A stretch of 64,000 nt of DNA from Branchiostoma lanceolatum. Lineage: Eukaryota; Chordata; Leptocardii; Amphioxiformes; Branchiostomatidae. The position numbers and the translations under genes are program-made. This document shows, one piece after another, positions 42,301-63,934 of the stretch. Numbering within the stretch: position 1 is the stretch's first letter; each line of letters begins with the position of its first letter. The notes below the pieces were generated by a model. The model made no database searches and had not been told where the DNA came from. It was given only the letters and a program-made list of their open reading frames with translations. Location of the stretch: positions 40,347,958 to 40,411,957 of the forward strand of contig NC_089722.1 of assembly GCF_035083965.1 (NCBI RefSeq), in the 5' to 3' direction.

Positions 42301-45300
42301 CCAAAAAGGTTGGCAAAACAAAAATTCTGATACTTCACTTGATAGTTCTTCTGTATTGGTAGAAGTCATTCTGTATTGGTAGAAGTCATTCTGTATTGGT
42401 AGAAGTCATTCTGTATTGGTAGAAGTCATTCTGTATTGGTAGAAGTCATTCTGTATCAAAGTTGAACTGTAATTAAAAAACACAAAAAAATGGTCTCACC
42501 GAATTATTAACTTTGTCAAAAGTTAGTCCACTGTCAGTGGTGTGTGTTCAACTACCATGCTCTTTCTAAGGAGAGAAAGCAGTATGTGCCATTTAAAGTC
42601 TTTGGTATGACTTGATTGGAGATTGAACTCACGACCTATCGAATGCACCTGGTGAACAAAAACCCAGGCAAAATTATGCGCCAGTCGGAATCCAGAATTC
42701 TTTATCATAGTGGAAAGAAGTTTTGTCAGTAGCATAACTCCCTCACAACGGGCCAGCTGAATGACTATTTCTTCCTGGTCATATTGAGGGAGAGAATAAT
42801 GTTTTCCTTTTAAAAACCCATGCAGAAGTGTCCTGTCTTCTGATGTGGATCCTGTCAGAGGATACAATATATTTGATTTAGACAAATTGAGAGATAAGTA
42901 GAAAGCATAGCATGTTACACAAGTCTCGCTGGTCATGTTACTCGCCATATGAGTCAGCTGGTAAAATGCTCCTTCGGTCTCCAGAAGCGAACCGAGCTGA
43001 CTGACAAGATGTATGAAACCATGATAGGGAATACTGGAAGCTGAACTTTGTGAATACCCTTTAACTCTATTAAAGAGTAAGAAATATGATGATGATGATG
43101 CACTACAAAGAACTCCTTGGGAAGGCACAGCTTTACATCTTTGACTAGCATATATAGATATACTGTTATAAAGTGTGCTCATTGTTAACTTCTTTCCAGC
43201 TTGCCCGAGCGGTTGTGAGGTTCCACCAGGAGAGGAAAGCTAAGGAGGTCCGTGCTGAGAAGGAGGAGGCTCTAAGACTCAGGAGAATAGCTTCCAACAT
43301 GGCCAAGGAGATCAAGGCTTTCTGGGCTAACATTGAAAAAGTAAGACAGGGTTTCTTCCTCATAATGCCCCCATATGTTGTGTTTTCTAGAAAAAGCCCT
43401 ATCCTGTAAGGCATGTCTAGAACGAGAAGCCTTGTCATCTTGAGTCATAAGGTTACGTACCTAAATGTAACACAGGTGCAGAGGTTTGGACCTGTATCCG
43501 AACCATGTAACCTGAGGTCGTCCATGACGTAGGAAAAATTAATAAATAGTTTACAGAATGTTTACTTAGACTTCGGGTATCTTATGTAGAGAACTATGCT
43601 TTCAAGAGGATCTCAATGAAAAGATGGTGTTGCTGATTTTAAATGGCCCATGCAATGTTTTCAACAAAATTAGTCATCAGGAAACAAGTTGAATGATTTT
43701 GATGGAAGCCACATTTTGTTACATGGGCAAGTCGTTACAGATGTTGCCCTATCAAAATGTGGCCAGATCGATGCATACTTTGCTTCTGCCTCAGACTTCT
43801 CCATGTCACAAGCAGCAATGGAGCATGCTACAACTAAACAAGTTCTTTTTTTGTATAGGGTTGCATGCATCTGCTATTCACAGCTACCTTTCACTTTCCG
43901 TAACAGGTTATCATCCACTTTCAGTATGTATTAGAATTGAAACTGTCAAATGCTAAAATTGTATTGACTTTGGGGTAACAGATTTATTTCAAAATCAATT
44001 GAAATTTAGCCATATTCTACTTTTTGTGGCTCAAAACAAAGATACCAAAGTTGCAGGCATTTGCCTTTTGAACTTTTCGCAGTTCTGGCAAAAGATGTAT
44101 TTCTTGCGATACAGGCTGGATTAACCGGTAAACTTCCCTGTACTTGTAGGAACAGGGAAAGAATCAGTTGTGATTCAGAAAAAAAAGTACCGAAGTCTGA
44201 AGGGAATTCTAGTTTGAACTGTAAGTGGTACTGTATTGGCAGAAGACTTCTTGCTTAACCAGTTACATTTTGTCTGTATCTTAAGGTTGTGCAATATAAG
44301 CAGCATTCTCGGCTGGAGGAACAGCGTAAGAAGGCGTTGGACCTGCAGCTGAACTTCATCGTGGACCAGACGGAGAAGTACTCCTCCTGGCTGACCCAGG
44401 GGCTGAAGGAGGACGCCTCGCTACAGGGCTCAGCCGCTTCCAGTCCAGGCAGGGACGCTACGCTAGGAGAGGGTGAGTGTTTGGCAGGTCTTTCTTTCAA
44501 ATTCATATTCACTTCAACCCAAGGGAATGGGTTGTTTGGGTCGCGGAGCGAGTGTGTGTGTATGCGTGAGTGAGTGAGAGCATATGTGTGTGTGTGTGCA
44601 GGTTTTTTTCTAGAAAATTAAACAAGAGGGAGCACACACATGCGAGGGAGAGAATTCTTTATTTATGGATGAATCTATTGCTGAGTGAAGGCTGTATGCT
44701 CATATTTAGTTAAAATCTGAATTTGACAAGGGGGAGCTGGGCTGAAACAAGAGGGTACAACGCCCCTCTTTCCTGATTTAGATGAACCCCTGGTGTGTGT
44801 GTTTGTGTGTGTGAGCACATGCACGTGTGCATGCGAGTGTGTGTGTGTGTGAGTGCGTGTGTTAATGTGTATTTATGTGTGTGTTTCTGTATTCATAATG
44901 GACACAATGCAGCATTGCCATACATTCTCTGCTTTAATTTCTGCCATTGAAAGGCAGACTGGAAGGGTAGCAAGTCAGTATGGGAAAGGGGGTGAAGTTT
45001 GCCGTCTCTGATGCCTCGTTAGCAGTACAATTTATCCTGAAAATTTGTTTGAGACCACAGATTCCCAGTGTTTTCTCCTAGTTAAACCGATGTATCTGTT
45101 GATGGTTAGATGATGAGTTCCACCCTGATGATGAGAGTGATGATGAGGAGACTCTGGAACAGGAGGAGGAGGCTGACGACCAGGAGGATGTGGATGAGGA
45201 GGTAGCGCTCCTGCAGCAGGAGAGTGAAGTTCCTCTGGAGGACCTCATCTCCAAACTCCCTCCGGAGATCCTGGAGAAACCTGCCGAGTCCATGGAGGTC

Positions 45301-48300
45301 GACGGGAACTCCAGCAGTGACGAAGTATGGACAGTTTCTTTTTTGTAGGAGTTTGCTAAGTGCAAGGCCAAGAAAGACCACTTATAAGCACTAAACTACT
45401 GTTGTGTACTTACTACAAAACAAGACTCAAAGGTTACATGGATAGCTATAGGACTGGCACAGCATCTCTTCTCCTCAAGTCAGAAATACTGTAAATTATC
45501 TTTTTTTCCCAGGGATGAGATTTGTAAATAGGATGATGAGATTTGTAAATAGGATGAGAGAGATTTTTACTGTGTTTAAAGTTCGCAGTTGAAACAATTC
45601 TCTAGTACAGTATTAATCTAAGCCAGAAAAAGTTCACACTGAGCCCTGAGTCATTTGTCAAGTGGAATAACTCCCTCACAACGGGCCAGTTGAATAATTC
45701 CATTTCTTCCTGGTCGTATTGAGGGAGAGAAAATGTTTTCCTTTTAAAAACCCATGCAGAAGTTTTCAGTCTTCTGATGTGGATCCTGTCAGAGGATACA
45801 AGTCATATTCACAATCAATCAATTAAATTGAACAATCAACTACATCACAAGATTATGTAAATACTAGAAGCTCTCAGAAAATTCGTCATCTTGGTTTATT
45901 TTACTATGGTTAAGAATTTAAGAATCCTTCAAACATTCCTGCATCTGGCCCCTAGTCTAGATTGTTTCTGAAGCCAAGGCAATCCAAAAACTGGGAAAAA
46001 TGCAATCATGCTACAGATTATTTCTGTCTAGATGTCTTTCTAGGCAGGATGTATTTTTGTGTTTGAAGTTTTGCTTGTGAACTCATAACATGTTATTTCC
46101 CTCAGGAGGAGGAGGGTTCGACCAGAGAAGCACCGGATGATGATGAGTTCATGCCTTCTGACGCCTCGGAGGAAGAAGGGGGTGAGAAAAGATTATACAG
46201 TTCAATTCTGCAAGCATTTCTTTAGCTTGTCGCTTTTGGCAAGGGCACACTGTTCGATTTTTCTGAGAGTGCAAGCTATTCTCATATGTTTTTTCGGAAT
46301 TCGTCTTTCCCTAGAACTGTCGTAGAATGGAATTTATTATAGCCAAATACATTAAGAGCATCCTCACTAGATTTTATTAATCAACACTTACAGCTAGATG
46401 TGCAAAAGTTTAGGTATGGCAGGTTGTTAAGTGTAATATAACCAGCTGCTGCCGCGCCGCATGACTGTGAAGCTGGTGTGATATGCCAAATGGCAGTTAT
46501 ACCGGCTATGAAGATACAGATACAGATTCTCTTACATGCCCAATGGAAGGAATAAATCTAAGCTCCCACCTTTTGTTTCAGCTGGTGACGATGAGCAGAC
46601 AATAGAAGAAGAGGAGGAGGCTGAGGGTGAGGCAGATCACAAGGAAGAGCTGGACGATCTTCAAAAAGAAGGTAAAATCCACTTGAATATAAATCACAGT
46701 TGTCAATGCAGAGCTTGGAATTCCAACCTCCAATTTGGAGGAACATTTTTAAGTTTACAGAAAGAAATGTAAACAAGGTTTGCATGAAATCTGTTACGGT
46801 GATTAACATTGTACAGATTTGATATGCCTTTTCCTTATTCAAAATAAAGTGTTTCGACAAGTACTTACGGCAGATCAAAGGACTGATCGAAAGCATGTTT
46901 GAAAGCTCTTTACTTTTTGTATGGAAATAGCGATAAACGTGTTGAAGAAAACAGGAATTATTTCAATCCCCCCATTTGATGAAATTTTTCAATTTCTGTA
47001 ACAAGTGCAATATCATGTGTTCCTAACCAAAGAAATTGGGAATGCTGAGTTTTAGATTAGGATGTTATGTTTAAAGTATGATTCTTTTGTTTTGCAGGGG
47101 AGATGTCCATGGAAGACCTGATAAAGAAATATGGTGGTGCTTACGAGGAAGGGTTCGAGCCTCCCCCCAGTCCTCCCGAGTCTAGTCTCACAGATGAAGA
47201 CGAGTACGAAGAAACTGAAGGTAAGACTTTCAAACAGAAGATTCAGAAAAGAAAAATCTGTCATCAGCATTTGGATAGCTGTAAAGGTTAAACAGCTACT
47301 GGGAATCATTTAACACTTAGATAAAGTTCTTTGCACACTTTGGACTTTGTTATCCAGTGATTCACAGTTGTAACATGTGATATCTTTTTGAGTAAATGAA
47401 GAGATGGTAAGACTCATTCTTTGGCTTCCTTAGCAGTCAACATTTTTAGAGGTTTGCAATCTAGAATAGCTCAGTGGTGCTTAAGAGTAGGTTTTAACAA
47501 GAAAATTATTTGACTTTGAAGCTCAAAACTCCCTCACAACGGGCCAGCTGAATGACTATTTCTTCCTGGTCGTATTGAGGGAGAGAAAAATGTTTTCCTT
47601 TTAAAAACCCATGCAGAAGTTTCCTGTCTTCTGATGTGGATCCTGTCAAAGGATACAAGTCTTTTCAATGAAATTGATCAATCTACTACATCACAATTGT
47701 CTCTATCAGACTCAGTGCAATTTTTTGTACTGAATGCTCTTAATACAAAGTTTATTCCATGTGAATTTGATATATTTTTAGCTTTATGTTGGATTTTTTT
47801 CATGTCATATTTGTGTGATGTTGAGTTTTCTCTCAACTTGAAACTGATTTAGAGTCTGATATTCTTGTATTCAAGAAAGTTGTTAAACATCCAAAGAGCT
47901 TGGTTCAACCTTCTTCACACTGAAAGAAATGTGTTGAAGCAGTTTAAGAAAAGAAGTGAAAAGTTTTTTTGTAGTTGAGAATCATTGTTATTTTTCTCTG
48001 TGTTTGTAGAGTCTGAGACTGAGGAGCCCAGTGATGATGAGGAGGAGGAGATGGCTGACATCGGGATGGAGTACCTCATCCACGGGGACAAGGAGAACCA
48101 CCAGCCTCAGGAGGGATCATCGGTAAGGACTGTTTAGCAACCGATGATCAACCAAAATACTTGGGTCATTGAGAGATCAAAAGACATTAAGGTTGATTAA
48201 AGATTATGAAATTATTTCATCCAGTGTGAGATGATTATAAGATCTTGCAGATAATTTAGCACTCACTCAAGGGGACATGGAAAACCACCAGCCTCAGGAT

Positions 48301-51300
48301 GGCTCATCGGTAAGGACACAGGTCTGCAGGGCAACTGATGATCATTGGTCGTTGAGAGATTGTAGAATAGAGACCTTGTTGCCACCAAGTACTGTAGGAG
48401 CATCCTCACTAGATAGCTTTAATGAATGCTTGCAGTCAGATGTGCAAAGGTTATGTGTGACAGGTCGTTAGGTGTAATACAACAAACTGCTGCTACCACA
48501 CAATGTGCATGCGAAGCTGGTGTGTTACACCAAAGAGCAGTTATACCAGCAATAAAGATACAGATCATAGGAATACATTGAGGTTGTTATGTTTATTGGA
48601 AGACCACCGGAAGAACTTGGAGATTGTTGGAAGAATTTGGACATCATTTGAATCATTGAGAGATAATTGGAAAATGTTGGAGATCATTGAGCACTACCTG
48701 AAAAACTGTTGATGGATCTGTCAAATTTGTGAACCCTATCCGTAGGACTAATGGTGTGGATTCCACTATGTCTGATTGCCTTGTTTTCCTTCCTGTTATT
48801 AGACACAACAAGAAGGCAAAGGTCCCAGTAAGGAGATCACAGACATCGCCGCTGACGCTGCAGCCTGCCAGCCCACAGGGTACACGCTAAGTACAACACA
48901 GGTCAGTGAAAAATATACCAGAATCAGTGCTTCAAAAAACATAAAACTAAACTGCATATGTAGTTTGGTACTGGTAAAACTGGAGCTTTGCAGGTATTTC
49001 TGATGTCTGCCTGCACTGGCCATAGTACCATCCTCGAGTCTTTTTGAATGTCCCCTGTATGTAGTTAAAACCAAAAAGATATGTACTAGGGGTGGATACC
49101 GGTTCGGCTGGACCGGTTTGGACCGGAAAAACATGCAAGAACCGGGTCAAAAAAACCGAAAGTCGTGAACCGGTTTTTTGGACCCGGAAGTCGGAACAAA
49201 GTAGAATATTTAGACATCTCCTCAGTTCTGGCCACAGAAGGGGAAAAATAGCCTTGAATCAAACTAAATCAGCCTGAAATAAGTCCATATTCACCTCTTT
49301 CTATAACTGTTGGTTCAGTTTTAGGTCGATTCTGAAATGTGCTACGAAAAAAACAACATTAAAAGTTACCACACAGCCACGAGGTTGGTGCCGAGGTGCC
49401 GAGTATTAGTGCCCATAAACTCGCGTAAATTTTCACTCCAAACGTAAGAATCAGCACTCAAACACATTAAATATGGGGCAAACAACATCTTTTCTTTCTT
49501 GTACAAGTGTATTCAGTCCATTTTTACGAGTTTGGGACGCATTAACCTCCTTGATTGCACCGAGAAATCCTCTAGCGCCAGCAGCGGCGGCCATCTTGCT
49601 TTTCTAGTAAGTGGTACCTTCAAGTCGATAGAGTGCAATTATCAGCCTGCTCACTAGAGGGAGCTGCTAGGAGTTAACTATCAAGATCTGTTTTCTCAAG
49701 GTGGTTTTCTTCATTAGTTTTATCAAATTTATTTCGAACTCTGGATATTTTATTTAAGGCAATTAATTATGTTTTGATGAAATAAAAAGTGTTGTAAGGC
49801 TGCTTGTTAGTTACTGACAGAAAGGAATTGAAAGTAAGTGCAACATTCAAATACATATTGGTTTGATATTACTGAGTATTACTAAGATATCAACTTCAGG
49901 TTTAGGTTCAGGTCCGGACCTGAACCTAAACCTCTGGACCTGAACCTGGACTCGAACCTGATCGAGCCGAACCGGTATCCACCCCTAATATGTACCATGT
50001 CCACAAGTCCCAGCCCCAAACTTGCTGCTAACATGATGAATCTACTCATTCTTCTCTGATCATACATGATCGACAAGCACTGGGTACTGATTAGCTCTCA
50101 ATAGATACATTTTATATGGCTTTAGTTCTGTGAACCTTAGAAAGATTTGACCTCTTAAGCTGCCTTCTTTAGGTCACCACTCGAAATGACGAATGCAATC
50201 TGCTGCAACATGTCTGAGCTGGAGTCGATACTAGGATTAGGCCATCCATGAAATTCGACCCAAGCAACAGAGTTTTGTTACTTCTTTGCCACAGGTTTTG
50301 ACTATATTTTGTTCACTCTCCCCTTCAGGTGAAGACTCCTGTGCCGTTCTTACTGAAGCACACCCTGAGAGAGTACCAGCACATCGGGCTGGACTGGCTC
50401 GTCACCATGTACGACAAGAAACTCAACGGCATCCTGGCGGACGAGATGGGGCTGGGGAAAACTATCCAGACCATCGCGCTGTTCGGTCACCTCGCCTGCG
50501 ATAAAGGTTCGTCTTGTTATTTTTGTTTTTATCAAGTCCTAACACAGATCAGATGGACGTGAGTTAAGTGCTGTTTTGTCACCTGGCCTTTGACCTAAGA
50601 TCAGAGAAGCATTGAGATGTTCCCTCGATGAAGGTTATACATGCACAATAGTTGCTTGTTTGTATTATACATTTTGACGATTTCTCAAATTCTGCTTCTG
50701 TGTCTTGGTCCAAAACTTCACCTCTAAACTAAGAAATTGATTAGCGTCTTGGCATCTTTTGCTATCGCATGAAAAATGTCTATTTTCTCAAGAAAGTAAA
50801 TGAAATATTGTAGACGTCTAGACATTTAGCAGAAATGTTAATTGCTGCCTGCCGATTATTGAATAGTGTCAGTTGCATGTAGAAAAGATACCTGGTATGT
50901 GGTATGAATTTGCAGCTAAATCTCTGTTGACCTTTGATTTACTTTCCTTGCACCGTTTTGTCCGCGCAGGTATCTGGGGTCCCCATCTGATCGTGGTTCC
51001 TACCAGCGTCATGTTGAACTGGGAGATGGAGTTCAAGAAATGGTGTCCGGCCTTCAAGATCCTGACGTACTACGGCAACCAAAAGGAGCGCAAACAGAAG
51101 CGGCAGGGCTGGACCAAACCCAACTCCTTCCACGTCTGCATCACCTCCTACAAACTGGTCATACAGGACCACCAGTCCTTCCGACGCAAGAAGTGGAAGT
51201 ATCTGGTCTTAGACGAGGCGCAGAACATCAAGAACTTCAAGTCTCAGCGGTGGCAGACTCTGCTGAACTTCCAGAGCCAGCGCCGGCTACTTCTGACGGG

Positions 51301-54300: not shown

Positions 54301-57300
54301 AAAATGTTGTATTTGTTGACAAAACTTTGATCTGTTAAAAAAGCTAACTCTAAACGTAATGAACTGAAGTGTCTGACATTTTGGCAGTGGAAGATTGGTT
54401 GGTTGGTTGGTTGGTTGGTTGGTTGGTTGGTTGGTTGGTTGGTTGGTTGGTTGGTTGGTTGGTTGGTTGGTTGGTTCAGGGCTCGAAATAGTGGGTGTAT
54501 GTGCACCCAGTGCACCCAAAATTGGAGCTGTGCACCTAATTTTTGACTGTGGGTGCACTGGTGCACCTATATATTTTTGTAGCCTATAGGGTTAAGGTAC
54601 TATTGTACACTAGTATACAGAATATTCTTGAAATGTAAGTATAAAAACAGCATGATAACTTTTTGCTGTACTTTATTTAATGTATTATTTGTTTGAAATT
54701 TTAAAGTTAGCTATAGAATTACAGATTGAAGTTCTTAAGAGAGGCAGCAGCGTTAAACTTTGTAATTATGTTCTGAAGAACATTCAACTTTATTTTATCT
54801 GGTGCACCCAAAATTCTTTCTGTGCACCCAATTTTTTGAGTTGGGTGCACCAGTGCACCTATTCCCAAAGATGAATTTCGAGCCCTGTTGGTTGGTTGGT
54901 TGGTTGCAAATTTTTTATTTAAAAAAATTTATTTACCAAATCTACAACTGTATTACACATTGATTGTATTGAAAGCCAAATTCCCATTCACATTTTCTAA
55001 AAATTGTTGCCACTAAAACTACAAGATTCTTTTTATTTTATTTTATTTTCCTTTTATTGGGATTCCAACAATGCAATACAATGGGCCACCCAGGCAGCAT
55101 TCATGTTCAGAAGTTTTGATCTGCTGCTAACCTAAGATGCCCATACTAATACCACCATCTTCTTTCCTTCCCTGCCCAGGTGCTGAGACCGTTCCTACTA
55201 AGAAGACTAAAATGTGATGTGGAAAAACAGCTGCCCAACAAGTACGAACACGTGGTGACCTGTCGCCTGTCCAAGAGACAAAGGTTCCTCTACGACGACT
55301 TCATGTCTCAAGCCAAGTAAGATCCATCTTTCACTATTGTATCTAGCAGGGGTCTCCCTAAAGAATGGAACAGTGGTGCTCCTCCATCCTGTTGTAATTC
55401 GAGCTCCATCCTGTTGATTTTCAGAGTTAGATATTTCTTTAGATATTTTCCCAGCCAAGCCTGTAATTTTGCTCAAAACTTGAGATTTCAGTAATTGTAG
55501 ACAAGATGCAAAGCTGAAGTTGCAGGAAATGACCTCCATTTCTGTCTGGAAAAAGCAAAATGCAAAAGCTGCTGTCTTCTTGACGAGTGCGCCCCCCTCC
55601 AGACCTCAACTCCTCGCGACATGTATCCTCATAATCCTGTGCTTGGCACCCTCCCCCCATCCTGCTCTATATTTCTAGGGAGATCCCTGATCTAGTACAT
55701 TTTATTAACCTTCTCCTTACCACCTAACCCCATATCTAATATGTACTTGGGGCCAAAAGGCTAACTTGTCAGAGCAAAGGTTAAATGTCAAAACGTGCTG
55801 CTAACATGATGAATCTACTCATACTTTTCTGATCATACATGATCGACAAGCACCGGGTACTGATTAGCTTGCAGAAATGTTTATCTAAAGATTACTTTTA
55901 AGCTTTAATTTTTAAACTGTGCACTTATGTTTTGTTTTGCTACATTGTCTTTCGGGAAAGCCAGATGTTGAAATACAGTGTAGTTCGGACTCAAAAGAAA
56001 TTATGATGACAAGGACAAGAATGTGTACACCATGCCCTGTTACAACATTTGTCTTACCCCTTAGGCCTAATTGCTCCAGTCAAAGGTCTTCTTTTCAGTT
56101 TGTTATCTGACAACCATTGAATTTACTGTATGTGTAATTAGTCATACAGTCAAACCTGCCTAGGCGACCACCTTTTCAACGCGACCACCTGGCCATGGCG
56201 ACCGCTTTTTCTCGGTCCCGAAAATTTTCCCCATAGGCACAAGCATTAAGCGGCCTGCCCAAGGCGACCACCCGTCCAACGCGACCGCGACCGCCACGAA
56301 TTGGGACAGCACAGAACACAATCCCTGCCCATGGCGACCACGTTTTTCCGGCGTGTGGTCACGGACATCGAATTTTACTGTCGGATTTCGCGGAAATGTT
56401 TTTAAGACCTTGACGGACCGTCAAAAGCATTGATTCCTCCATGTGTTTAAATAAAACGTTACCACTATAAACATTGTAAATACAAAGGATTGTGAGACAT
56501 CGATGCTGTTGTGCCCATCGTAATCTTATAGTTTACCGCAAGCTCGGTTCGGTTTGAACTCAATTTTCAAAACGAGCACGTAGTGCATGGCGTCAAAAAG
56601 TCAGATTTCACAGAAATTACTATCTATTTCTTGTAATTTCAACAAAAATGTGTCTCTGTCTTACTAAATTCCGCCGAAAAATGACTCCGCGGTGGATGGC
56701 AAAACCTTGGCCGAGACATGTTGTTTCTTGGTCCGTGACGCCATCTTTGTTTCAGCGCGGCATAACGCTGACTTTTCAAATACACGGCGCTTCTGTGTAT
56801 GAATATTTAGAATACTCTCATTATTGATAAAAATTAATATTCTTATATTCTTGTTATTTCCATGACTCTCACAAACCTTTATTGGGCACTGCTTGCTTGT
56901 AATCGCCGACGCTGTGCGTTCTGCTCCACTGTTACCTTTCGATGCGGTCGCGTGCTCGGCGGCGGTATCACAACTTTCCGTTTTCGTCCTTCCGTTGTCA
57001 GATCGAAAACTTTTTGCCGCTTTAATCCAGCGGTCGGCGCCCAAAAGAAGGCTGGGGTCAGCAGGTGTTTTCTAGGGATTTGTCTCAGGCCTTAAAACCT
57101 AGATTTTATATGAGTGTGTGTGTGTGTGTGTGTGTACTCTTACTTAAACGTAACGTGTGAATGCGGGAGGGCGCTGCAAGGTCATCGAGGCAGACATTGC
57201 TTTTAGTCAAAACTATGACGAACATTTGTTCACGATGTAACGGTATACAAATATTACAACGGAAAATGTAAATTCTGTAGGATCTTTCTGTCAATGAGAA

Positions 57301-60300
57301 TTGACCCTGGTGGGGGTCATGCTGTCTAAAATCACATATTTTTCCATCCATCTACGTGGTACACGGTATTTGAACACCTCGAGCTGGAAACAAGGTTATG
57401 GTTGGAATCCTCTTCATGGCGACCACCTGTCCATCGCGACCGTTTTTGCTCGGTCCCCCGGGTGGTCGCCTTGGGCAGGTTTGACTGTAGTTTGTGTTTT
57501 TATATGTGAAACCAGGGGTACCTTAAAAACAGGCTTGCCTGAGTGTATTTTCCCTGTATAAATAAAAATAAATAAAAAAATTTAAATGTTTCAGAACCAG
57601 GGAGACCCTTGCCTCTGGACACTTCATGAGTGTGATCAACATCCTGATGCAGCTGAGGAAGGTGTGTAACCACCCCGACCTGTTCGACCCTCGGCCCATC
57701 ATCTCTCCCTTCAACACAGAAGGCATCTGTTACTACACAGCCTCACTGGTACACAGGGTAATGGAGTATCATCCTTTTCAGGTGAGAGCTTAATCAGCTT
57801 TGTTTTGTCTTTTTCAAATCTATGCCGTTAGTAGCTTAGTACTGAATAATGTTCACTATACAGGACGCTGAGCTGTGGCAGGGATAAAGGTTCTTTTGTG
57901 ACAGGAGTTTAGAAGATAGAAATCAAAAGATGAACTGTCAGTATGTTCCAACACAACTGCTACAACCAGACTGAGAAACTGTTTCTCAGATCTATCTCCA
58001 TAGGCGAGGAGAGTAGTTTTGTTTTTAAGTTTTTCTGTGTTAGTAGAAATCATTCTGAAGCAAAGAAAAACTGTAATTTCAAACATAAAAATTGACCTTA
58101 CACTAAATTTCGACTGTCTGACTCCAGTCTTTGTTGAGGAATTAGCAATGGAAAGTTGGACAGTCGAACATTTGAGAGCAGATAAATTTGGTTCTGGAAA
58201 TGAAAAGAATTGTTGAAAGTTAGGGTAAACGAGGTTGATAAGACGAGCCTTCTTTCAAGTGAGCACTCAGTCGCAAACCCTCGGAGACCATCATGTGGAC
58301 AAGGCAGGCTGTGCTGGTGTGTACCTTCACCTGAACAGCGTATTTGACCACATACACAATATACCCTTCCCTGTGTTAGTGTTTTTCAACAGTACTTAGT
58401 ATTGACAAAAGCGGGTTGATCTCTCGAAAAAAGATAACACTAAAAGTCATTAACTGCATTCAGACTCAGAGATGAGTTTTTTCTGGGTTCAAAGTGCAAT
58501 TATGAGCTATGTACGTTGATGATTTTATTGGTCAGTAAGGCATTGTCCTAAAGAGCAGTTAGATGAGTTACCATTAGTTTATAAGTTAGTTTCTGTACAC
58601 CGATTTTTGTCACCTTTTTCCTATAAAAAACTTAACAACTTTGAACCATGATAAATTAGTCTAAGTATTATTCCCTGTTTTATTCCAGCATGTGAACCTA
58701 GGGTACCTGAACCTGTGCCTGTCAGACTTGGAACTGAGTCTCCCTGCCTATGCTGCTCACCGTGTAAACCAGCTACAAGCCTCCAGACAACTCATCGAGG
58801 AGATAGACTCCCAGCCCGACCCCCCTCCCCGGCTACCCCCCATGAAGCTGAGACCCAGCCTGTTCCAACCCCCTGCTCCGGCACCCAAGGAGAGCGGGAG
58901 GTCGTCTCCCTTCGCTCCGGCGCCAGCGGCACAGTCTAGTCCACGAGCGTCTCCCGTGGTGTTCTCAGTCGCTGTCGTGCCGCCGAGAGTAAAATCGCCG
59001 GCCGTGGCGTCGGCGTCACCGGCTAGAGCTTCACCCCCTGTTCAAGGTAATGATGTGATCACATTATTCGGACAAAAACACATGTATAGCAACTTCGATT
59101 TTTTGACAAAGCGGAAGAAACGGTTAGATTTTGGCCAGGTTGGTGATTTTTGAACCCAGAGTATTTGAAAACACGAACACAGAGGTGCTTTGGTAAAGTA
59201 TGTCAAGGATTCTAAAATAAAATCTTGTATACAGTCAAGCCTGTACAAGTGACTACCTCCACATAAGGACCACCTGGCCATTGTGACCACTTTTTGGTGG
59301 TTTTCACCTCGACACAAGCATTAAGAATCCTGTCTATCGTTGACCACCTGTCCACATCGACTAGATTTTATCGGTCCACTGAGTGATCCTCTCCGACAGT
59401 TTTGACTGTATGTTGTATTTGCTGTCCTCACTTCTGATGTCTTGCGTTGCTGTTCCACAGTTGTACAAGCGGCACAGCAGCTTGCTGTCAGCGCGGCTAT
59501 CCCTACTGTCACCACGGCTGCTCCAGCTGCCCCGGTACAGCCCAAGGTCGCCGCGTCCCTCACGCCGTCGCAGGCCGTCACCATCGTGTCACAGATGCAA
59601 CAACAACAACAACAGCAGCAACAACAGCAGCAACAGCAACAACAGCAGCAGGTAAAGGTTTGTGGCACTGACAGAATTCAACTTATGACTAACTGTAAAG
59701 TAACGAATAACAAAACTCTTTATTCACACCAACATTTAGGTGTCAGTGTAATGTGAACCGGGCAGAGCAACCCTGAGGAAGGTGACAGACTGTCTCCGAA
59801 ACGTTGGTTGAATAGAACACTTGGTTGTGTACAAAGAGTTTGGTTATTCAGTGACTTGATGAAAGTATTCACGGATGTAAAATGGATAGAAACTTAAGCT
59901 TGCTCTCAGTGATCATCTGTCATCTTATTGAACTAGTGTGCAAATGTCTGTGATGAAATTAGTTATATCTCCTATAATTAAAGTATAAATGATACAAAGG
60001 TATTTGAGGCTATTTTGTTGCTTTTCCTCAGTCTGAGGTTCAACTGCTTTACTTTAACCTTTTATATTCATGTCTGTTGTAATGTCAGTTACGGTCAATG
60101 TAGATTCCTGATGCCTTTCCAAATGTACTGATCATGTTGTATGTTTTGTACAGCAGGGTGTGGCCCAGATGGTCACCACGACGACCCCGGCTGCCGTGAT
60201 CACCACCCAGCCCCAACAGCTGCCAGGTTTCACCATCCCCACATCCCTGTTACAGCAGAGACTCATACTGCAGGGCACACAGAGACTTCCCACAGGTAAG

Positions 60301-63300
60301 GACTTACCTCTTCTTCATTAGTACCCTAACACAACAATTTCACCATCCCCACATCCCTTTTACAGCAGAGACTCATCCTGCAGGGCACACAGAGACTTCC
60401 CACAGGTAAGGACTTACCTCTTCTTCATTAGTACCCTAACACAACAGTTTCACCATCCCCACATCCCTGTTACAGCAGAGACTCATCCTGCAGGGCACAC
60501 AGAGACTTCCCACAGGTAAGGACTTACCTCTTCTTCATTAGTACCCTAACACAACAGTTTCACCATCCCCACATCCCTGTTACAGCAGAGACTCATCCTG
60601 CAGGGCACACAGAGACTTCCCACAGGTAAGGACTTACCTCTTCTTCATTAGTACCCTAACACAACAGTTTCACCATCCCCACATCCCTGTTACAGCAGAG
60701 ACTCATCCTGCAGGGCACACAGAGACTTCCCACAGGTAAGGACTTACCTCTTCTTCATTAGTACCCTAACACAACAGTTTCACCATCCCCACATCCCTGT
60801 TACAGCAGAGACTCATCCTGCAGGGCACACAGAGACTTCCCACAGGTAAGGACTTACCTCTTCTTCATTAGTACCCTAACACAACAGTTTCACCATCCCC
60901 ACATCCCTGTTACAGCAGAGACTCATCCTGCAGGGCACACAGAGACTTCCCACAGGTAAGGACTTACCTCTTCTTCATTAGTACCCTAACACAACAGTTT
61001 CACCATCCCCACATCCCTGTTACAGCAGAGACTCATCCTGCAGGGCACACAGAGACTTCCCACAGGTAAGGACTTACCTCTTCTTCATTAGTACCCTAAC
61101 ACAACAGTTTCACCATCCCCACATCCCTGTTACAGCAGAGACTCATCCTACAGGGCACACAGAGACTTCCCACAGGTAAGGACTTACATGTAACTCTTCT
61201 TCATTAGTACCCTAACACAACAGTTTCACCATCCCCACATCCCTGTTACAGCAGAGACTCATACTGCAGGGCACACAGAGACTTCCCACAGGTAAGGACT
61301 TACCTCTTCTTCAGGTACTGCCTTACACAACATTGTTGGGAAGAAATACGTTCACTTTTTTCTTTGATTTTTGTATAAGAAAAGTTGGTGCACGAGGAAT
61401 GATGACAAAAAAGGCCGAATTACAGTAGCCCTCTCCTTCTGGAAAGGGTTACGCTGACAAAAACTCCTGGAAGCGATTATATCCATCCTGACCTCACTGC
61501 ACACAAATTGCATTTGTTTTGTCGTGAGTAACCTGGTCTTGCGTCCCATCTGGGAGTACGTCCATAGCTGAAGCTACTAAGTACTCATTTTCACCTGAGT
61601 CAAATGAGGAAATTGGTGTTAAGGTCCTTTCCAAAGGCACAAGATCTGGGCCTGATAAGGATTAGAAGTCAAAACCTTTAGATTTTAAGTCAACAACTCT
61701 ACCCACAAGACCAACTGGAGATCACCTTGCCACCTTTGATTAAGGTCTCATTCCTGTATTACTCCGAGTGGGTACCCTAAAAGAGTCCGTTGCCCAAAAA
61801 AATGAACGGCTGCATGAACGTGTGTCTATATCGGTGGGAAATTCCCTTTTAGCTATTCCAGCTGATATCAAGCGTCAAACTGATGAAAGCTTGTTTGTAA
61901 CTGAAGAAATTAGCAGGCAAAGTTCGGCAGCCGCGCGCGAGGTCAGAAGTACACAGCCCGGGCATTGTGTGTGAATCGGTCCGGCGCTTACAGCTGGAAA
62001 GTGGCTTTTTGGAGGTGTAGCCAAGTGCAGATTGTAATTGCTATCAAAAGAAATTGTGTGTAGTGAAAATGTTGTCGATTTTTTTACATAATCTAGGGTA
62101 CATGTTCTCAACATGAAAAACATTGGCACATTTCCTATAGCTTCATTACGAACGCGCCCATGTAAAACATGTTTTATAACATGTAAGCCTATGGGGCGAA
62201 AAAACTCATGAATGAGACCTTAACACTGTGTTCCTCTCAGGCGAGGTTGTGTCCATTGCACAGCTGACACCAGCGACCACCACAGTGGGCGGGGTCAGAC
62301 AACCCCTGATGTCCTCTCAGCCAATCACAGTGCAGATTCACCAGACGCAGCAGGGCGCGAGACTCACGGTCCCCACCGGGCAGATCAGGCAGTTGCCGGG
62401 TAATCGTTTGTTTGTTTGCTTGTTTGCTTGACATGATTGGTATAATCACTACTACCATTTCCGTAATTTAAGTTGCTAAGTACAAATTGCAAAAGAAATG
62501 GATTGGTTTTAGGCATCACATGTTAATGATTTCTGTTTGTTAATTTTGTATAACTTATTTGCACAATTTGTATTTGTATTTAAATAGAATTTTATTTATC
62601 ATGTAATATTTTTTACATAAATAATTTTTTTTCTAATTGTAACACTGCTTCATTGTAAAAGTTTTGTGTGCTCATAAATGTAGTGGAAGAATGGGTTCCC
62701 TGAGTAGGTGCAAGTTGAGGAATGATGACAAAAAAGGCCGAATTACAGTAGCCCTCTCCTTCTGGAAAGGGTTACGCTGACAAAAACACCTGGAAGCGAT
62801 TACATCCAACCTGACCTCACTACACATAGAATAAATCAGTACAGTCAAACCTGTACAAGAAGACCACTGAGGGGACCAATAAAATGTGGCCAGGTGGTCA
62901 CTATAGACAGAATTTTTAATGCTTGTGTCAATGGGGAAAATTATCTCAGACCACACAAAAAATTGTCATAATGGCCAGGTGGTCCTTATGTAGAAGTGGT
63001 CATTTGTACAGGTTTGACTGTACTTCTCATATAATCTATGATTAAGTGTACCCAAGTATTCACATTTCAGTATAAAAGTAAGAAAGTTAATGGCTTACCT
63101 TCTATATTTCCAGGAGGTTTTGTACAGATAATCCAGACAACGACAGGACACCAGATCTTGAGAACTGCGAGTCCCAACATCGTCACTGCCGTCCCCCAGT
63201 CTCAGGCACAGCTACTATCCAGAACATCCTCACCCGGTCAGTTTATCACTTATGTTTTTTAAACATATGAGCAGGTGATAGCCATTCTTATACATAGAGC

Positions 63301-63934
63301 CTCACATGGAGCCTATACCATATACCTTGGTAGCTGTGGCCTCTAACCAGCTGTCAGCCAATCAGAGAATTGGCTAAATGTTTTCTGTAGGTACATCTTA
63401 TTCTCCGATTGGCTGACAGCTGGTAGGGGGTAATGGCCACAAAAGTGGAATCCTCAGCCCGGTTTAGCAAAGCCTCCCCAAGGTATATTGTATAGGCCGC
63501 AGGGGAGGCTTTGCGCAGAAGAATGGTGATAGATTATGTTGTCCCTGGAAACTTAGATAAGTTTTCGATGCTGGTCTGGGAAGATCGTAATGTAATGATT
63601 TATGAATAAGTAATGATTTCTATATTTTTTGTGTACGTTGGCTTGAAGTGATGATTTTTACGCGTTAGACTTCTGACTTACCCATGAACGACAAGCACTG
63701 GGTACTGATCAAGCCTCTACACAAACTCAGCTACACTTTTTCTTAGAAAAAAATAAACATTTAGAAATATTGTGATCTGTTTAAGAATGTTCTTTGCTGT
63801 CTGTTTCAGCTACCCAAGGTGCAGGAGTTGTTACCCAGACTGTAACAGTACAGAGAGTCCCGACCCCTCACACGCAGATCGCACAGCAGCCACAGGCTCT
63901 CATCGTACAGCAGGCACAGCAGCAGCAGCCACAG
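33372..63934 (+). CDS. Domino-type SWI2/SNF2 chromatin remodeller (EP400/SRCAP ancestor type), 5' part, continues off right edge
   Basis: Twenty-seven coding exons agree in phase: 33372-33650, 34119-35135, 37458-37505, 38190-38303, 39444-39651, 40409-40660, 41334-41578, 42123-42308, 43200-43340, 44286-44472, 45110-45324, 46106-46181, 46582-46671, 47098-47220, 48010-48122, 48803-48901, 50329-50506, 50970-51378, 52288-52378, 55180-55316, 57595-57781, 58689-59046, 59461-59651, 60154-60295, 62241-62399, 63114-63236, 63810-63934. They encode 1,831 residues of an expected 3,000 or so. The protein is the motor subunit of a TIP60/SWR1-type nuclear complex that exchanges H2A.Z. Order: Pro/Met/Ser-rich N-terminus with the EP400 block, Q-rich linker, HSA, acidic region, ATPase lobe 1, then a Q-rich insertion. 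Lobe 2 and SANT lie beyond the edge. The start is MM after an AG acceptor. The least sure exon is 37458-37505 (48 bp, phase 0, possibly alternative). Confidence 0.93.
34119..35135 (+). other. Remodeller exon 2: EP400-specific N-terminal block
   Basis: This 339-codon exon (residues about 94-432) contains [16 protein letters not shown] and [11 protein letters not shown]. It then has [39 protein letters not shown] and an acidic end. These align in order with human EP400 ([48 protein letters not shown]) and are absent from SRCAP as I recall it. Confidence 0.88.
35448..36362. mobile_element. hAT-type non-autonomous element in remodeller intron 2
   Basis: The ends CAGTGTTTCCGCCAGA and TCTGGCGGAAACACTG are perfect inverses. 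GTTTAGGG is duplicated on both sides (35440-35447 and 36363-36370). The 8-bp duplication and CAGTG terminus define hAT. 915 bp, no transposase frame. Confidence 0.92.
37727..38117. mobile_element. Palindromic MITE in remodeller intron 3
   Basis: ACTGGTCACTTAAAATC at the left is inverted as GATTTCAAAGTGACCAGT at the right, with further pairing inward. The interior is AT-rich and non-coding. Confidence 0.6.
38455..38545 (+). repeat. Decayed copy of remodeller exon 4 end plus donor region
   Basis: CAGCTCAGCCAACAGCAACG, then AATCAACACTCC and the phrase CATGTAGCCGGGGCACA match 38283-38370, which covers the last 20 bases of exon 4 and the start of intron 4. The copy has lost the GT donor. Confidence 0.75.
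39167..39193 (+). other. Possible alternative short exon with in-frame stop
   Basis: A strong polypyrimidine acceptor (CTCCCCCTCCCCCCAG) precedes GCA GCT TAC ACC CAG CAG TTT CCA TCC TAG. It is in phase with exon 4 and would truncate the protein at about 495 residues. No poly(A) signal was seen nearby, so a decoy or relic is also possible. Confidence 0.25.
41018..41115. repeat. Decayed fragment of the Tc1-like MITE family
   Basis: GACCACAAGGCCAATGTG, TTTTTGGTGTTTTTCCC and CAAGCATTAAGA resemble the element at 59232-59408. The terminal repeats are lost. Confidence 0.5.
42349..42458 (+). repeat. 20-bp minisatellite, about five copies
   Basis: TTCTGTATTGGTAGAAGTCA is repeated perfectly, starting about 40 bp after the exon 8 donor. 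A very regular array suggests recent expansion. Confidence 0.9.
42525..42655 (-). mobile_element. tRNA-derived SINE copy, minus orientation
   Basis: On the minus strand GTGAGTTCAATCTCCAATC (B-box like), GTCATACCAAAGACTTT and a tail ending CAGTGGACTAA match the SINE at 27745-27957. Confidence 0.6.
42738..42869 (+). ncRNA. Candidate H/ACA snoRNA, family A copy 1 (remodeller intron 8)
   Basis: The 5' hairpin closes with CTCCCTCA and TGAGGGAG. An H box AGAATA (ANANNA) follows. The 3' hairpin has outer stem TCCTTT/AGAGGA and inner stem CAGAAG/CTTCTG, with a pocket between. ACA lies three bases from the end. Length 132 nt, sense to the host gene. Two near-identical copies lie in introns 11 and 14. 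Confidence 0.75.
43708..43835 (+). ncRNA. Candidate single-copy H/ACA-like RNA (remodeller intron 9)
   Basis: GCCACATTTTG pairs perfectly with CAAAATGTGGC around an internal loop and a second stem GGGCAA/TTGCCC. Then a hinge, a second hairpin with stem CTCCAT/ATGGAG, and GCTACAACT, where ACA sits three bases before the proposed end. The length of 128 nt suits H/ACA. The hinge AGATCG departs from ANANNA, so confidence is limited. Confidence 0.4.
44585..45109. repeat. GT-rich tract and intron-end block shared with intron 18
   Basis: The GT-rich run (44585-44885) and the 200 bp after it (ACACAATGCAGCA, GACTGGAAGGGTAGCAA, AGTTTGCCGTCTCTGATG, GTTAGCAGTA) match 52000-52287. Both blocks end at the 3' splice site of the next exon. 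An H/ACA-like end GCAGTACAATT (GCAGTATATTT in the other copy) is suggestive but not convincing. Confidence 0.6.
45671..45803 (+). ncRNA. Candidate H/ACA snoRNA, family A copy 2 (intron 11)
   Basis: Same design as 42738-42869: closing stem CTCCCTCA/TGAGGGAG, H box AGAAAA, CAGAAG/CTTCTG stem, TCCTTT/AGAGGA and terminal ACA. The apical loop differs (TTTTCAGT for TGTCCTGT) while the stems are unchanged. Confidence 0.75.
46355..46535 (+). repeat. Interspersed repeat ending in GATACA units, copy 1
   Basis: AGCATCCTCACTAGAT, AGATGTGCAAAAG, GAAGCTGGTGTG and GCAGTTATACC recur at 48398-48565, with fragments near 27430 and 6838. The tail GATACAGATACAGAT suggests a non-LTR retroelement 3' end. Confidence 0.6.
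47529..47660 (+). ncRNA. Candidate H/ACA snoRNA, family A copy 3 (intron 14)
   Basis: Same boxes and stems as the other family A copies. The outer 3' stem here is TCCTTT/AAAGGA, where one change turns a G-U pair into A-U, as expected for a selected RNA structure. ACA lies three bases from the end. Confidence 0.75.
48258..48309 (+). repeat. Copy of remodeller exon 15 end plus donor
   Basis: GGGGACATGGAAAACCACCA, then GCCTCAGGATGGCTCATCGG followed by TAAGGAC, repeats the last 40 bases of exon 15 (to 48122) and its GTAAGG donor, about 180 bp downstream. No acceptor precedes it. Confidence 0.85.
48398..48565 (+). repeat. Interspersed repeat, copy 2
   Basis: Second copy of the element at 46355-46535, in the same orientation, in intron 15. 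Confidence 0.6.
49087..49987. mobile_element. hAT-type non-autonomous element in intron 16
   Basis: The ends TAGGGGTGGATACCGGTTCG and CGAACCGGTATCCACCCCTA are perfect inverses flanked by the 8-bp duplication ATATGTAC (49079-49086 and 49988-49995). Subterminal TTCAGGTCCGGACCTGAACC palindromes are shared with 52409-53804. Confidence 0.92.
50027..50095 (+). ncRNA. Candidate C/D-box snoRNA, family 1 copy 1 (intron 16)
   Basis: The terminal stem GCTAA/TTAGC encloses C box ATGATGA (50033-50039), D' CTGA (50056-50059), C' TGATCGA (50067-50073) and D CTGA (50087-50090). The guide before D is AAGCACTGGGTA. Length 69 nt, about 230 nt before the next exon. Confidence 0.8.
51379..51998 (+). repeat. Four downstream copies of the 3' end of ATPase exon 18 plus donor
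   Basis: After the true exon, the last ~90 bp (encoding [20 protein letters not shown] and the [11 protein letters not shown] end) recur near 51449-51538, 51602-51691, 51755-51844 and 51912-51991. Each is followed by GTGGG(C/G) and a GT-rich spacer; the period is about 155 bp. The last copy lacks 11 bases. Acceptor signals are weak, so they are probably unused. Confidence 0.9.
52409..53804. mobile_element. hAT-type non-autonomous element in intron 19
   Basis: Ends TAGGGATGCGTACC and GGTACGCATCCCTA, with TTTACCAT duplicated on both sides (52401-52408 and 53805-53812). 1,396 bp. It shares TCAGGTCCGGACCTGAACC palindromes with 49087-49987. The longest internal frames show no transposase motif. 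Confidence 0.9.
54142..54272 (+). ncRNA. Candidate H/ACA snoRNA, family B copy 1 (intron 19)
   Basis: 5' hairpin closed by CGAGG/CCTCG with inner GACGAG/CTC(A)GTC. H box AGACTA at 54198-54203. 3' hairpin closed by GTGG/CCAC with upper stems GCTGT/ACAGC and CTGGTG/CACCAG around a two-sided pocket. Then ACA three bases from the end. 131 nt. Confidence 0.82.
54395..54476. repeat. (TTGG)n microsatellite, about 20 units
   Basis: An uninterrupted TTGG run, resumed for about four units at 54888-54905 after an inserted element. The long PTNQ open frame it creates is an artefact. Confidence 0.95.
54477..54887. mobile_element. hAT-type MITE inserted inside the (TTGG)n run
   Basis: Ends CAGGGCTCGAAAT and ATTTCGAGCCCTG. 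The interior has GGTGCACTGGTGCACC-type palindromes near both ends. The flanks are both TTGG repeats, so an 8-bp duplication cannot be resolved. 411 bp. Confidence 0.88.
55800..55868 (+). ncRNA. Candidate C/D-box snoRNA, family 1 copy 2 (intron 20)
   Basis: GCTAA/TTAGC stem, C ATGATGA, D' CTGA, C' TGATCGA and D CTGA at the same spacings as 50027-50095. The D guide is AAGCACCGGGTA, one base different. 69 nt. Confidence 0.8.
56147..57487. mobile_element. Tc1/pogo-like element, 1.34 kb (intron 20)
   Basis: Ends CAGTCAAACCTGCCTAGGCG and its inverse CGCCTTGGGCAGGTTTGACTG, flanked by TA. Subterminal GCGACCACC repeats. No transposase frame was recognised, so it is probably a deletion derivative; shorter relatives lie at 59232 and 62842. 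Confidence 0.85.
58230..58359 (+). ncRNA. Candidate H/ACA snoRNA, family B copy 2 (intron 21)
   Basis: Same design as 54142-54272: CGAGG/CCTCG, H box AGACCA, GTGG/CCAC, GCTGT/ACAGC, terminal ACA. The apical loop of the first hairpin has diverged completely while the stems and pockets are kept. Confidence 0.82.
59232..59408. mobile_element. Tc1-like MITE, 177 bp (intron 22)
   Basis: CAGTCAAGCCTGTACAAG at the left and CAGTTTTGACTG at the right with TA on both sides. Internal GACCACCTGGCCATTGTGAC links it to 62842-63020. Confidence 0.75.
59685..59860 (+). mobile_element. Palindromic retroelement relic with hammerhead-like core (intron 23)
   Basis: AATAACAAAACTCTTT at 59705-59720 is inverted as AAAGAGTTTGGTTATT near 59839-59854. 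Between them lies CTGAGGA, a stem (GGTGACA/TGTCTCC) and CGAAACGTTGG. This order resembles the hammerhead ribozyme core found in Penelope-like elements, with CTGAGGA instead of CTGATGA. Confidence 0.4.
60229..61312 (+). repeat. Ten-copy 110-bp array of exon 24 end plus donor
   Basis: The 3' 68 bases of exon 24 (TTTCACCATCCCC to CCCACAG) with GTAAGGACTTACC and about 30 intron bases recur nine more times. Donors lie at 60296, 60406, 60516, 60626, 60736, 60846, 60956, 61066, 61176 and 61292. Units are nearly identical. The first and last share ATACTGCAG where inner units have ATCCTGCAG or ATCCTACAG. Confidence 0.95.
61395..61496 (+). ncRNA. Candidate C/D-box RNA, family 2 copy 1 (intron 24)
   Basis: GAGG/CCTC terminal stem, C box ATGATGA (61400-61406) and D box CTGA (61489-61492). 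An internal D'-like CTGA follows a hairpin GTAGCCCTCTCC/GGAAAGGGTTAC. It is 102 nt and differs from the copy at 62717-62818 at three positions. The C' box is unclear, so another structured RNA class is possible. Confidence 0.55.
61575..61738 (-). mobile_element. tRNA-derived SINE, minus orientation
   Basis: On the minus strand TCTTGTGGGTAGAGTTGTTG precedes a tRNA-like region, then GTGCCTTTGGAAAGGACCTT and ACTCAGGTGAAAATGAGTAC, the same body as the SINE at 6565-6815. Confidence 0.6.
61744..62219. mobile_element. piggyBac-like non-autonomous element
   Basis: Ends GGTCTCATTC and GAATGAGACC are inverses, each flanked by TTAA, the piggyBac target. 476 bp. A 68-codon internal frame has no recognised domain. 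The class is inferred from TTAA alone. Confidence 0.6.
62717..62818 (+). ncRNA. Candidate C/D-box RNA, family 2 copy 2 (intron 25)
   Basis: Same boxes, stem and 102-nt length as 61395-61496. The flanks are unrelated, so the conserved unit ends at or just past the terminal stem, as expected for a processed intronic RNA. Confidence 0.55.
62842..63020. mobile_element. Tc1-like MITE, 179 bp (intron 25)
   Basis: CAGTCAAACCTGTACAAG and CTTGTACAGG-type inverse ends (TTGTACAGGTTTGACTG at the right) with TA flanks. Inserted 23 bp downstream of the family 2 RNA. Confidence 0.85.
63338..63440. mobile_element. Fold-back element in intron 26
   Basis: CCAGCTGTCAGCCAATCAGAGAA is inverted as TTCTCCGATTGGCTGACAGCTGG, within a wider palindrome bounded by ATACCTTGG and CCAAGGTAT. 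Confidence 0.7.
63642..63713 (+). ncRNA. Candidate C/D-box snoRNA, family 1 copy 3 (intron 26)
   Basis: Terminal stem CTTGA/TCAAG (sequence changed, pairing kept), C box GTGATGA, D' CTGA, C' TGAACGA, D CTGA. The D guide AAGCACTGGGTA is identical to copy 1 while the D' guide region has diverged. 72 nt, 96 nt before exon 27. Confidence 0.8.

Follow-up and report, generated by a model that had tools for sequence, protein, structure and literature searches.

Can a single protein-coding gene of the lancelet Branchiostoma lanceolatum serve as host to a whole set of intronic guide RNAs, and what would such RNAs guide? The window analysed here, a stretch of 64,000 nt, contains part of a chromatin-remodeller gene in whose introns an earlier note had placed ten compact, box-bearing elements. 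All ten lie where that note put them, in sense orientation, one per intron and conserved above their flanks, and they form two H/ACA and two C/D families of snoRNA type as it had proposed. With the addition of a SNORA1-like H/ACA element, the sequence indicates with high likelihood that this one gene bears at least eleven intronic candidate guide-RNA genes, one per intron (Table 1). We consider it very probable that the gene hosts several snoRNAs as guests, with the family targets and duplication history proposed below.

Table 1. Positions of the host gene parts and candidate guide RNAs, numbered from the first letter of the window.
Feature	Position	Strand	Details
Reading frame with EP400 N-terminal domain	33966..35201	+	PF15790 E 1e-32; upstream part of host gene
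Host gene part, 19 joined exons	43200..63934	+	HSA-like region, SNF2 ATPase, Q-rich tail
Family A copy 1, H/ACA, SNORA27-like	42735..42869	+	SNORA27 42.3 bits, E 2.1e-4; mir-4899 87.5 bits; H box AGAATA; ACA tail
Family A copy 2, H/ACA, SNORA27-like	45668..45803	+	SNORA27 42.6 bits, E 1.8e-4; mir-4899 88.8 bits
Family A copy 3, H/ACA, SNORA27-like	47526..47660	+	SNORA27 39.5 bits, E 9.3e-4; mir-4899 86.0 bits
SNORA1-like H/ACA RNA	43707..43835	+	SNORA1 40.6 bits, E 9.8e-4; ACA tail; absent from earlier list
Family B copy 1, H/ACA anatomy	54141..54274	+	H box AGACTA; ACA 54267-54269
Family B copy 2, H/ACA anatomy	58229..58361	+	H box AGACCA; ACA 58354-58356; UGAG in 5' loop
C/D-1 copy a	50027..50095	+	Stem GCTAA/TTAGC; C ATGATGA 50033-50039; D' CTGA 50056-50059; D CTGA 50087-50090
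C/D-1 copy b	55800..55868	+	Boxes and stem as copy a; D guide with one change
C/D-1 copy c	63640..63715	+	Stem GGCTTGA/TCAAGCC; C GTGATGA 63648-63654; D' 63673-63676; D 63705-63708
C/D-2 copy a, SNORD89-like	61394..61497	+	C 61399-61405; D 61488-61491; SNORD89 25.1 bits, E 0.78
C/D-2 copy b, SNORD89-like	62716..62820	+	C 62722-62728; D 62811-62814; SNORD89 30.1 bits, E 0.041

The host gene and its intronic elements

The host gene starts upstream of 43200 and ends beyond the window. Splice motifs define 19 exons from 43200 to 63934, and these yield a single open frame when joined without the tandem exon-like units at 60.3-61.3 kb. A SNF2 domain was detected with Pfam, and the best PDB match of the ATPase is human SRCAP (6igm) at 892 bits, versus 477 bits for yeast SWR1 and 475 bits at best for human EP400. 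The homologues of the reading frame near 34 kb are EP400_N proteins (homologous-protein search, 74 proteins). The view of the host as a remodeller therefore stands for the SRCAP/EP400 group, but not for a plain EP400, as the ATPase is SRCAP-like. Because an EP400_N domain at the N-terminus is combined with this ATPase, the host is probably a Domino-type relative of both SRCAP and EP400. No NOC4L-type Pfam domain was found in the eight upstream reading frames scanned. Tandem units were also observed in this gene. At 60227-61296 there are nine units of about 110 nt, 98-99% identical in the middle of the array, each with a GTAAGG donor after an exon-like stretch, which may reflect either exon duplication or an assembly artefact. 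At 51245-52051, five units of about 155 nt repeat the 3' end of an ATPase exon and its donor, and at 48260-48312 the end of the preceding exon and its donor are nearly copied within the next intron.

For the elements themselves, we observed anatomy, position, strand, conservation between copies, family similarity and complementarity. Their relative intron order matches 8, 11, 14, 16, 19, 20, 21, 24, 25 and 26 of the earlier numbering, in which the SNORA1-like element falls in intron 9. Exactly one element was found in 11 of the 19 introns between 42.3 and 63.8 kb, and none in the other eight. Random length-weighted placement of 11 elements, with the start of the first intron approximate, gives no doubles with a probability of 0.0075.

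Conservation was assessed by a repeat search and by aligning the copies with 120-nt flanks, taking identity per 20 columns. Family A is 0.75-1.0 identical inside and 0.0-0.3 outside, where the flanks are at background. C/D family 2 is 0.8-1.0 identical inside and 0.35-0.6 outside, with a short last window set aside, and the three copies of C/D family 1 are 0.3-0.85 identical inside and 0.0-0.4 outside, having mainly the boxes and the D guide in common. Family B reaches 0.65-1.0 inside, and a similarity of 0.6-0.85 persists for about 80 nt beyond the ACA before dropping (54275-54360 and 58362-58445). This is contrary to a clean snoRNA boundary, which does not predict it.

The changes between copies had also been called stem-preserving, and this is true only in the sense that they avoid the consensus stems. 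Paired positions account for 1 of 14 variable columns in A, 0 of 9 in B and 0 of 3 in C/D-2, in a stem consensus that was derived from the same sequences and from which pairs broken in one copy were dropped (the A1 5' hairpin and the B2 3' hairpin). Among the copies of A, B and C/D-2 there are no compensatory pair changes; one one-sided change occurs in A.

Rfam searched in E-value mode over 31000-64000 returned 27 rows. Of these, 17 were of snoRNA type, some overlapping and some false, and all 17 were sense, bearing out the proposed orientation; the four antisense rows included no snoRNA. One sR5 row (E 0.079), no worse than the SNORD89 rows, is false, since it lies inside a coding exon. In the first 31 kb of the window there were nine rows, two of them snoRNA-type (E 2.2 and 6.6). 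All named families remained under their gathering scores except mir-4899. Boxes were judged by the consensus motifs of snoRNAs. Scanning 31 kb with a C/D descriptor yielded nine sense and no antisense candidates, and five of the nine are the C/D elements noted earlier; a C box, a D box and a terminal stem are present in all five. Its extra candidates at 45110 and 34371 were excluded as within coding sequence, and those at 45533 and 47815 as intronic but weak. The H/ACA descriptor was non-discriminating, with 13 sense candidates, nine antisense, and two in one shuffle, and two antisense candidates were lower in energy than every sense one. Both family B copies headed its sense list, and family A was missed. 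Two hairpins, an ANANNA H box and a near-end ACA were found in families A and B, from folds and, for B, also from the descriptor. A tRNA scan of the DNA found none.

Could the repeated blocks be mobile elements or decaying intron duplications rather than RNA genes? Such an origin would accommodate the other duplicated intron blocks of the same gene (44923/52101 and 46343/48385), the 9-nt direct repeat around the SNORA1-like element and the similarity of family B beyond its ACA. However, the other 10 of the 11 elements have no common flank word of at least 7 nt in the 34-nt stretches compared. Every element is sense, with boxes and guides conserved and flanks not, and three families match named snoRNA families. 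We regard this explanation as very improbable. As snoRNA genes, the candidates would, we infer, be expressed and processed, direct modification, and be orthologous to known snoRNAs. Each guide RNA would most likely be freed from the debranched intron by trimming, which is the usual route for animal snoRNAs, and the copies of each family would have been born by duplication within the host gene.

Targets were sought in provisional reference sequences for U2, 18S and human 28S. A search of genome contigs for rRNA templates found two LSU fragments of eukaryotic type in metagenome-assembled bacterial records, and a search of viral contigs with two patterns gave nothing. The guide search yielded U2 for C/D-2 and LSU for copies a and c of C/D-1, whereas families A and B stayed within shuffles; in H/ACA pocket scans against the references, A, B and the SNORA1-like element did no better than shuffled guides.

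H/ACA elements, SNORA27 and mir-4899

The three copies of family A have a mean column identity of 96% and match SNORA27 (RF00443) over its full length (E 1.8e-4 to 9.3e-4), with scores of 39.5-42.6 bits where the gathering score is 64. They share with it their length, a 3' hairpin with CCUUUUAAAA and AUCCUGUCAGAGGA, and the ACA tail. Unlike SNORA27, their 5' hairpin is that of mir-4899 (RF03603), which reaches the gathering score of 85 in all three copies (86.0-88.8 bits) and is here embedded in a 135-nt H/ACA-like unit. The 28S-3694 5' guide of the SNORA27 consensus, UUUCACUUU, is absent from all three copies. In the provisional 28S sequence, this consensus guide pairs with a uridine lying 14 nt past the presumed C3680, an offset that agrees with 3694 minus 3680. 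In the 3' pocket for 28S-4522, the right strand CCUGUC is kept opposite GACAGG of GACAGGUUAGUUUUA (LSU L002, by eye), the left strand is altered, and the scan result was within the null. It is plausible that the predicted 3' pocket of family A targets 28S-4522. Both sites are listed as SNORA27 targets in the available part of PMC6466398, where the human host is RPL21; family A differs in having three copies within one gene.

In the mir-4899 model, 14 and 15 flanking positions are unpaired and there is no basal stem; the folds lack one too, and the 3' end of the model extends into the second hairpin. Drosha normally requires a basal stem. Because this stem is absent, we read the annotation as covering the 5' half of an H/ACA RNA, as the sequence suggests, and its small RNAs would therefore most likely be snoRNA-derived fragments. 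Family A might instead be a true microRNA cluster with a secondary resemblance to SNORA27. All three copies do exceed the mir-4899 gathering score, and the family exists through annotated small RNAs, as is the practice of miRBase. Conversely, the whole 135 nt are conserved, including the second hairpin and the ACA tail, the SNORA27 match spans the entire unit, and the hairpin lacks a basal stem, so that we find a microRNA cluster improbable. The H/ACA reading would make a database microRNA family half of a guide RNA. We take mir-4899 to be an amphioxus miRBase entry. Its number lies among those of amphioxus microRNAs, which include bfl-miR-4894 and bfl-miR-4900a in the available text of PMC5650284, and a literature search for mir-4899 gave no match. 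Human microRNA precursors with H/ACA features, as outlined in part of PMC2730528, likewise carry a microRNA annotation over an H/ACA-type RNA, but here three paralogues in one gene have a recognisable SNORA27 3' half. This SNORA27/mir-4899 chimera, triplicated in one gene, looks like the most unusual feature of the locus.

The SNORA1-like element resembles SNORA1 (RF00408) in a full-length match with the CAAUG and UGCUU guide parts, but it is single-copy and scores under the gathering score of 70. No exact ANANNA H box was seen in it by eye. If its junction is placed as in the Rfam consensus, the 3' pocket forms 7+6 bp (13 bp) with a site in the provisional 28S sequence, one that the SNORA1 consensus itself fits with one mismatch per side. 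Somewhere in the reference set, 13 bp were reached by 14 of 300 shuffled guides, and a fixed-junction pocket scan of the element did not exceed the null. Family A and the SNORA1-like RNA are proposed to be dyskerin-type H/ACA guides for LSU pseudouridines. Within 43680-43845, a 9-nt direct repeat, AAACAAGTT, stands on either side of the element; it is perhaps a target-site duplication, a sign of retroposition.

The family B copies are 97% alike and have a strong 3' hairpin. The UGAG of the 5' loop occurs in copy 2 only and resembles a CAB box. No named Rfam relative of the family was found over 31000-64000, or for copy 2 alone at E up to 10. A match of the 5' pocket to U2 position 44 (10+3 bp, including G-U pairs) was discarded as within chance. 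Since the H/ACA descriptor is non-discriminating, family B rests on anatomy and duplication, and we propose it as an H/ACA guide. There is some chance, though not a large one, that function is confined to the C/D elements and family A, with family B and the SNORA1-like element arising by chance or in decay. Family B has neither an Rfam relative nor a target above shuffles, and the SNORA1-like element is single-copy, with no exact H box by eye and a pocket scan within the null. Against this, the near-identical B copies both have H and ACA boxes and head the sense H/ACA list, and the SNORA1-like element combines an E value of 9.8e-4 with a consensus-registered 13 bp match. We therefore keep both among the candidate guides.

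C/D elements, LSU and U2

In C/D family 1, Rfam matched copy a to generic C/D models only, and a local scan of copy c gave C/D families in 14 of 15 rows (best E 0.0079). The D guide common to copies a and c forms 11 bp, one of them G-U, with LSU UGCCCAGUGCU, which is present in the fetched LSU sequence L001. A single change in the copy b guide abolishes this match. The residue at the box-plus-five position of the a/c duplex is a C, which we take to be 28S C3680, the site number being our own assignment. Guidance of 28S C3680 is attributed to SNORD88C in the available part of PMC10894041, and copies a and c, but not b, thus have a guide to this site beside the D box. Ten base pairs were reached somewhere by 121 of 2000 shuffled guides, and for this reason the weight lies on hitting a known site in register. 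The D' guide of copy c differs from that of copy a and forms 9 bp with LSU GAGUCUAAC, presumably the SNORD24 region. In a local Rfam scan, this part of copy c is aligned with plant snoR64 (E 0.048). No target match was found for the D' guides of copies a and b. We propose that copies a and c guide LSU 2'-O-methylation at the SNORD88 site and that copy c would also guide the second LSU site. The likeness to SNORD88 (PMC10894041, in part) lies in the inferred target site; C/D-1 differs in having no Rfam match to it, and the resemblance is one of task.

C/D family 2 resembles SNORD89 (RF00578) in its boxes, in a AAAAGGCCGA block for U2 and in an AGCGA block, but both copies (30.1 and 25.1 bits) are under the gathering score of 41. 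The U2-complementary blocks are AAAAGGCCGA at 61409-61418 and GAAGCGAT at 61470-61477 in copy a, and lie at 62732-62741 and 62793-62800 in copy b. In a duplex scan against the provisional U2 sequence, nt 9-18 (10 bp) gave the top duplex in both copies, and it was found before the Gm12 role of SNORD89 was looked up. Shuffles attained a 10-bp duplex in 2 of 1000 cases for U2 1-30 and in 24 of 1000 for the whole of U2. On this U2 sequence, both copies hold the guide sequence for Gm12; the D' box adjoining it would be degenerate (UUAC). The 8-nt GAAGCGAT complements U2 nt 1-8 and, on both strands of the window, occurs only in the two C/D-2 copies. Shuffling copy a 20000 times produces it in 45 cases, and the Rfam SNORD89 consensus at its position reads gaAGCGaa. 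The available part of PMC7960923 lists SNORD89 as the U2 Gm12 guide and reports Gm12 as necessary for splicing.

C/D-2 would then be the counterpart of SNORD89, guiding U2 Gm12 while held by two stretches that cover U2 nt 1-18. This two-part clamp is a prediction. C/D-2 differs from SNORD89 in its two copies and the longer match to U2 nt 1-8. The predicted clamp would make concrete how SNORD89 holds U2, whose Gm12 is reported to be necessary for splicing (PMC7960923, in part). The earlier link of the locus to rRNA modification keeps its LSU sites for some families, but C/D-2 is directed to U2 and hence to the spliceosome. Names or likely sites can be given to three of the four families. In a bolder scenario, which we think rather doubtful, a SNORA27-type RNA was triplicated after its 5' guide arm had either been exchanged for a hairpin whose small RNA (mir-4899) is loaded into Argonaute or had itself become one, giving dual snoRNA-microRNA genes. 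The two SNORD89 copies would clamp all of U2 nt 1-18 by two pairings, and guides for ribosome and spliceosome would be co-produced by one chromatin gene.

Hosting history and other repeats of the locus

In humans, SNORA49 and SNORA30 are intronic. Human gene lists place SNORA49 beside EP400 and SNORA30 beside SRCAP (PMC10137620, available part), and the earlier note had suggested, from SNORA49 in EP400, that hosting may be ancient. This found no backing here, as neither SNORA49 nor SNORA30 was matched over 31000-64000 or with family B copy 2 alone, at E up to 10, and therefore the guests themselves give no support for shared hosting. Hosts of several snoRNAs such as GAS5 also carry one guide RNA per intron, but the present host is a protein-coding chromatin remodeller. 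No description of this locus was found among the titles and abstract beginnings searched, which is not proof of absence. The elements are mostly new members of known snoRNA kinds, in a host without such guests in the literature searched. Host switching of snoRNAs becomes testable, with human SNORA27 in RPL21 (PMC6466398) and SRCAP and EP400 beside other H/ACA RNAs (PMC10137620), as far as the available parts of both sources go.

Further repeats were observed in the introns of the gene. The duplicated blocks 44923-45102/52101-52278 are 85-87% alike and 46343-46521/48385-48565 are 76-78% alike. Both pairs were dropped as RNA genes, since by eye no boxes are kept in both copies, and the first additionally reaches near the intron end. 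Two introns contain inverted arms and AGGTCCGGACCT-rich palindromic stretches (49084-49990 and 52433-52502), which suggest terminal-inverted-repeat transposons.
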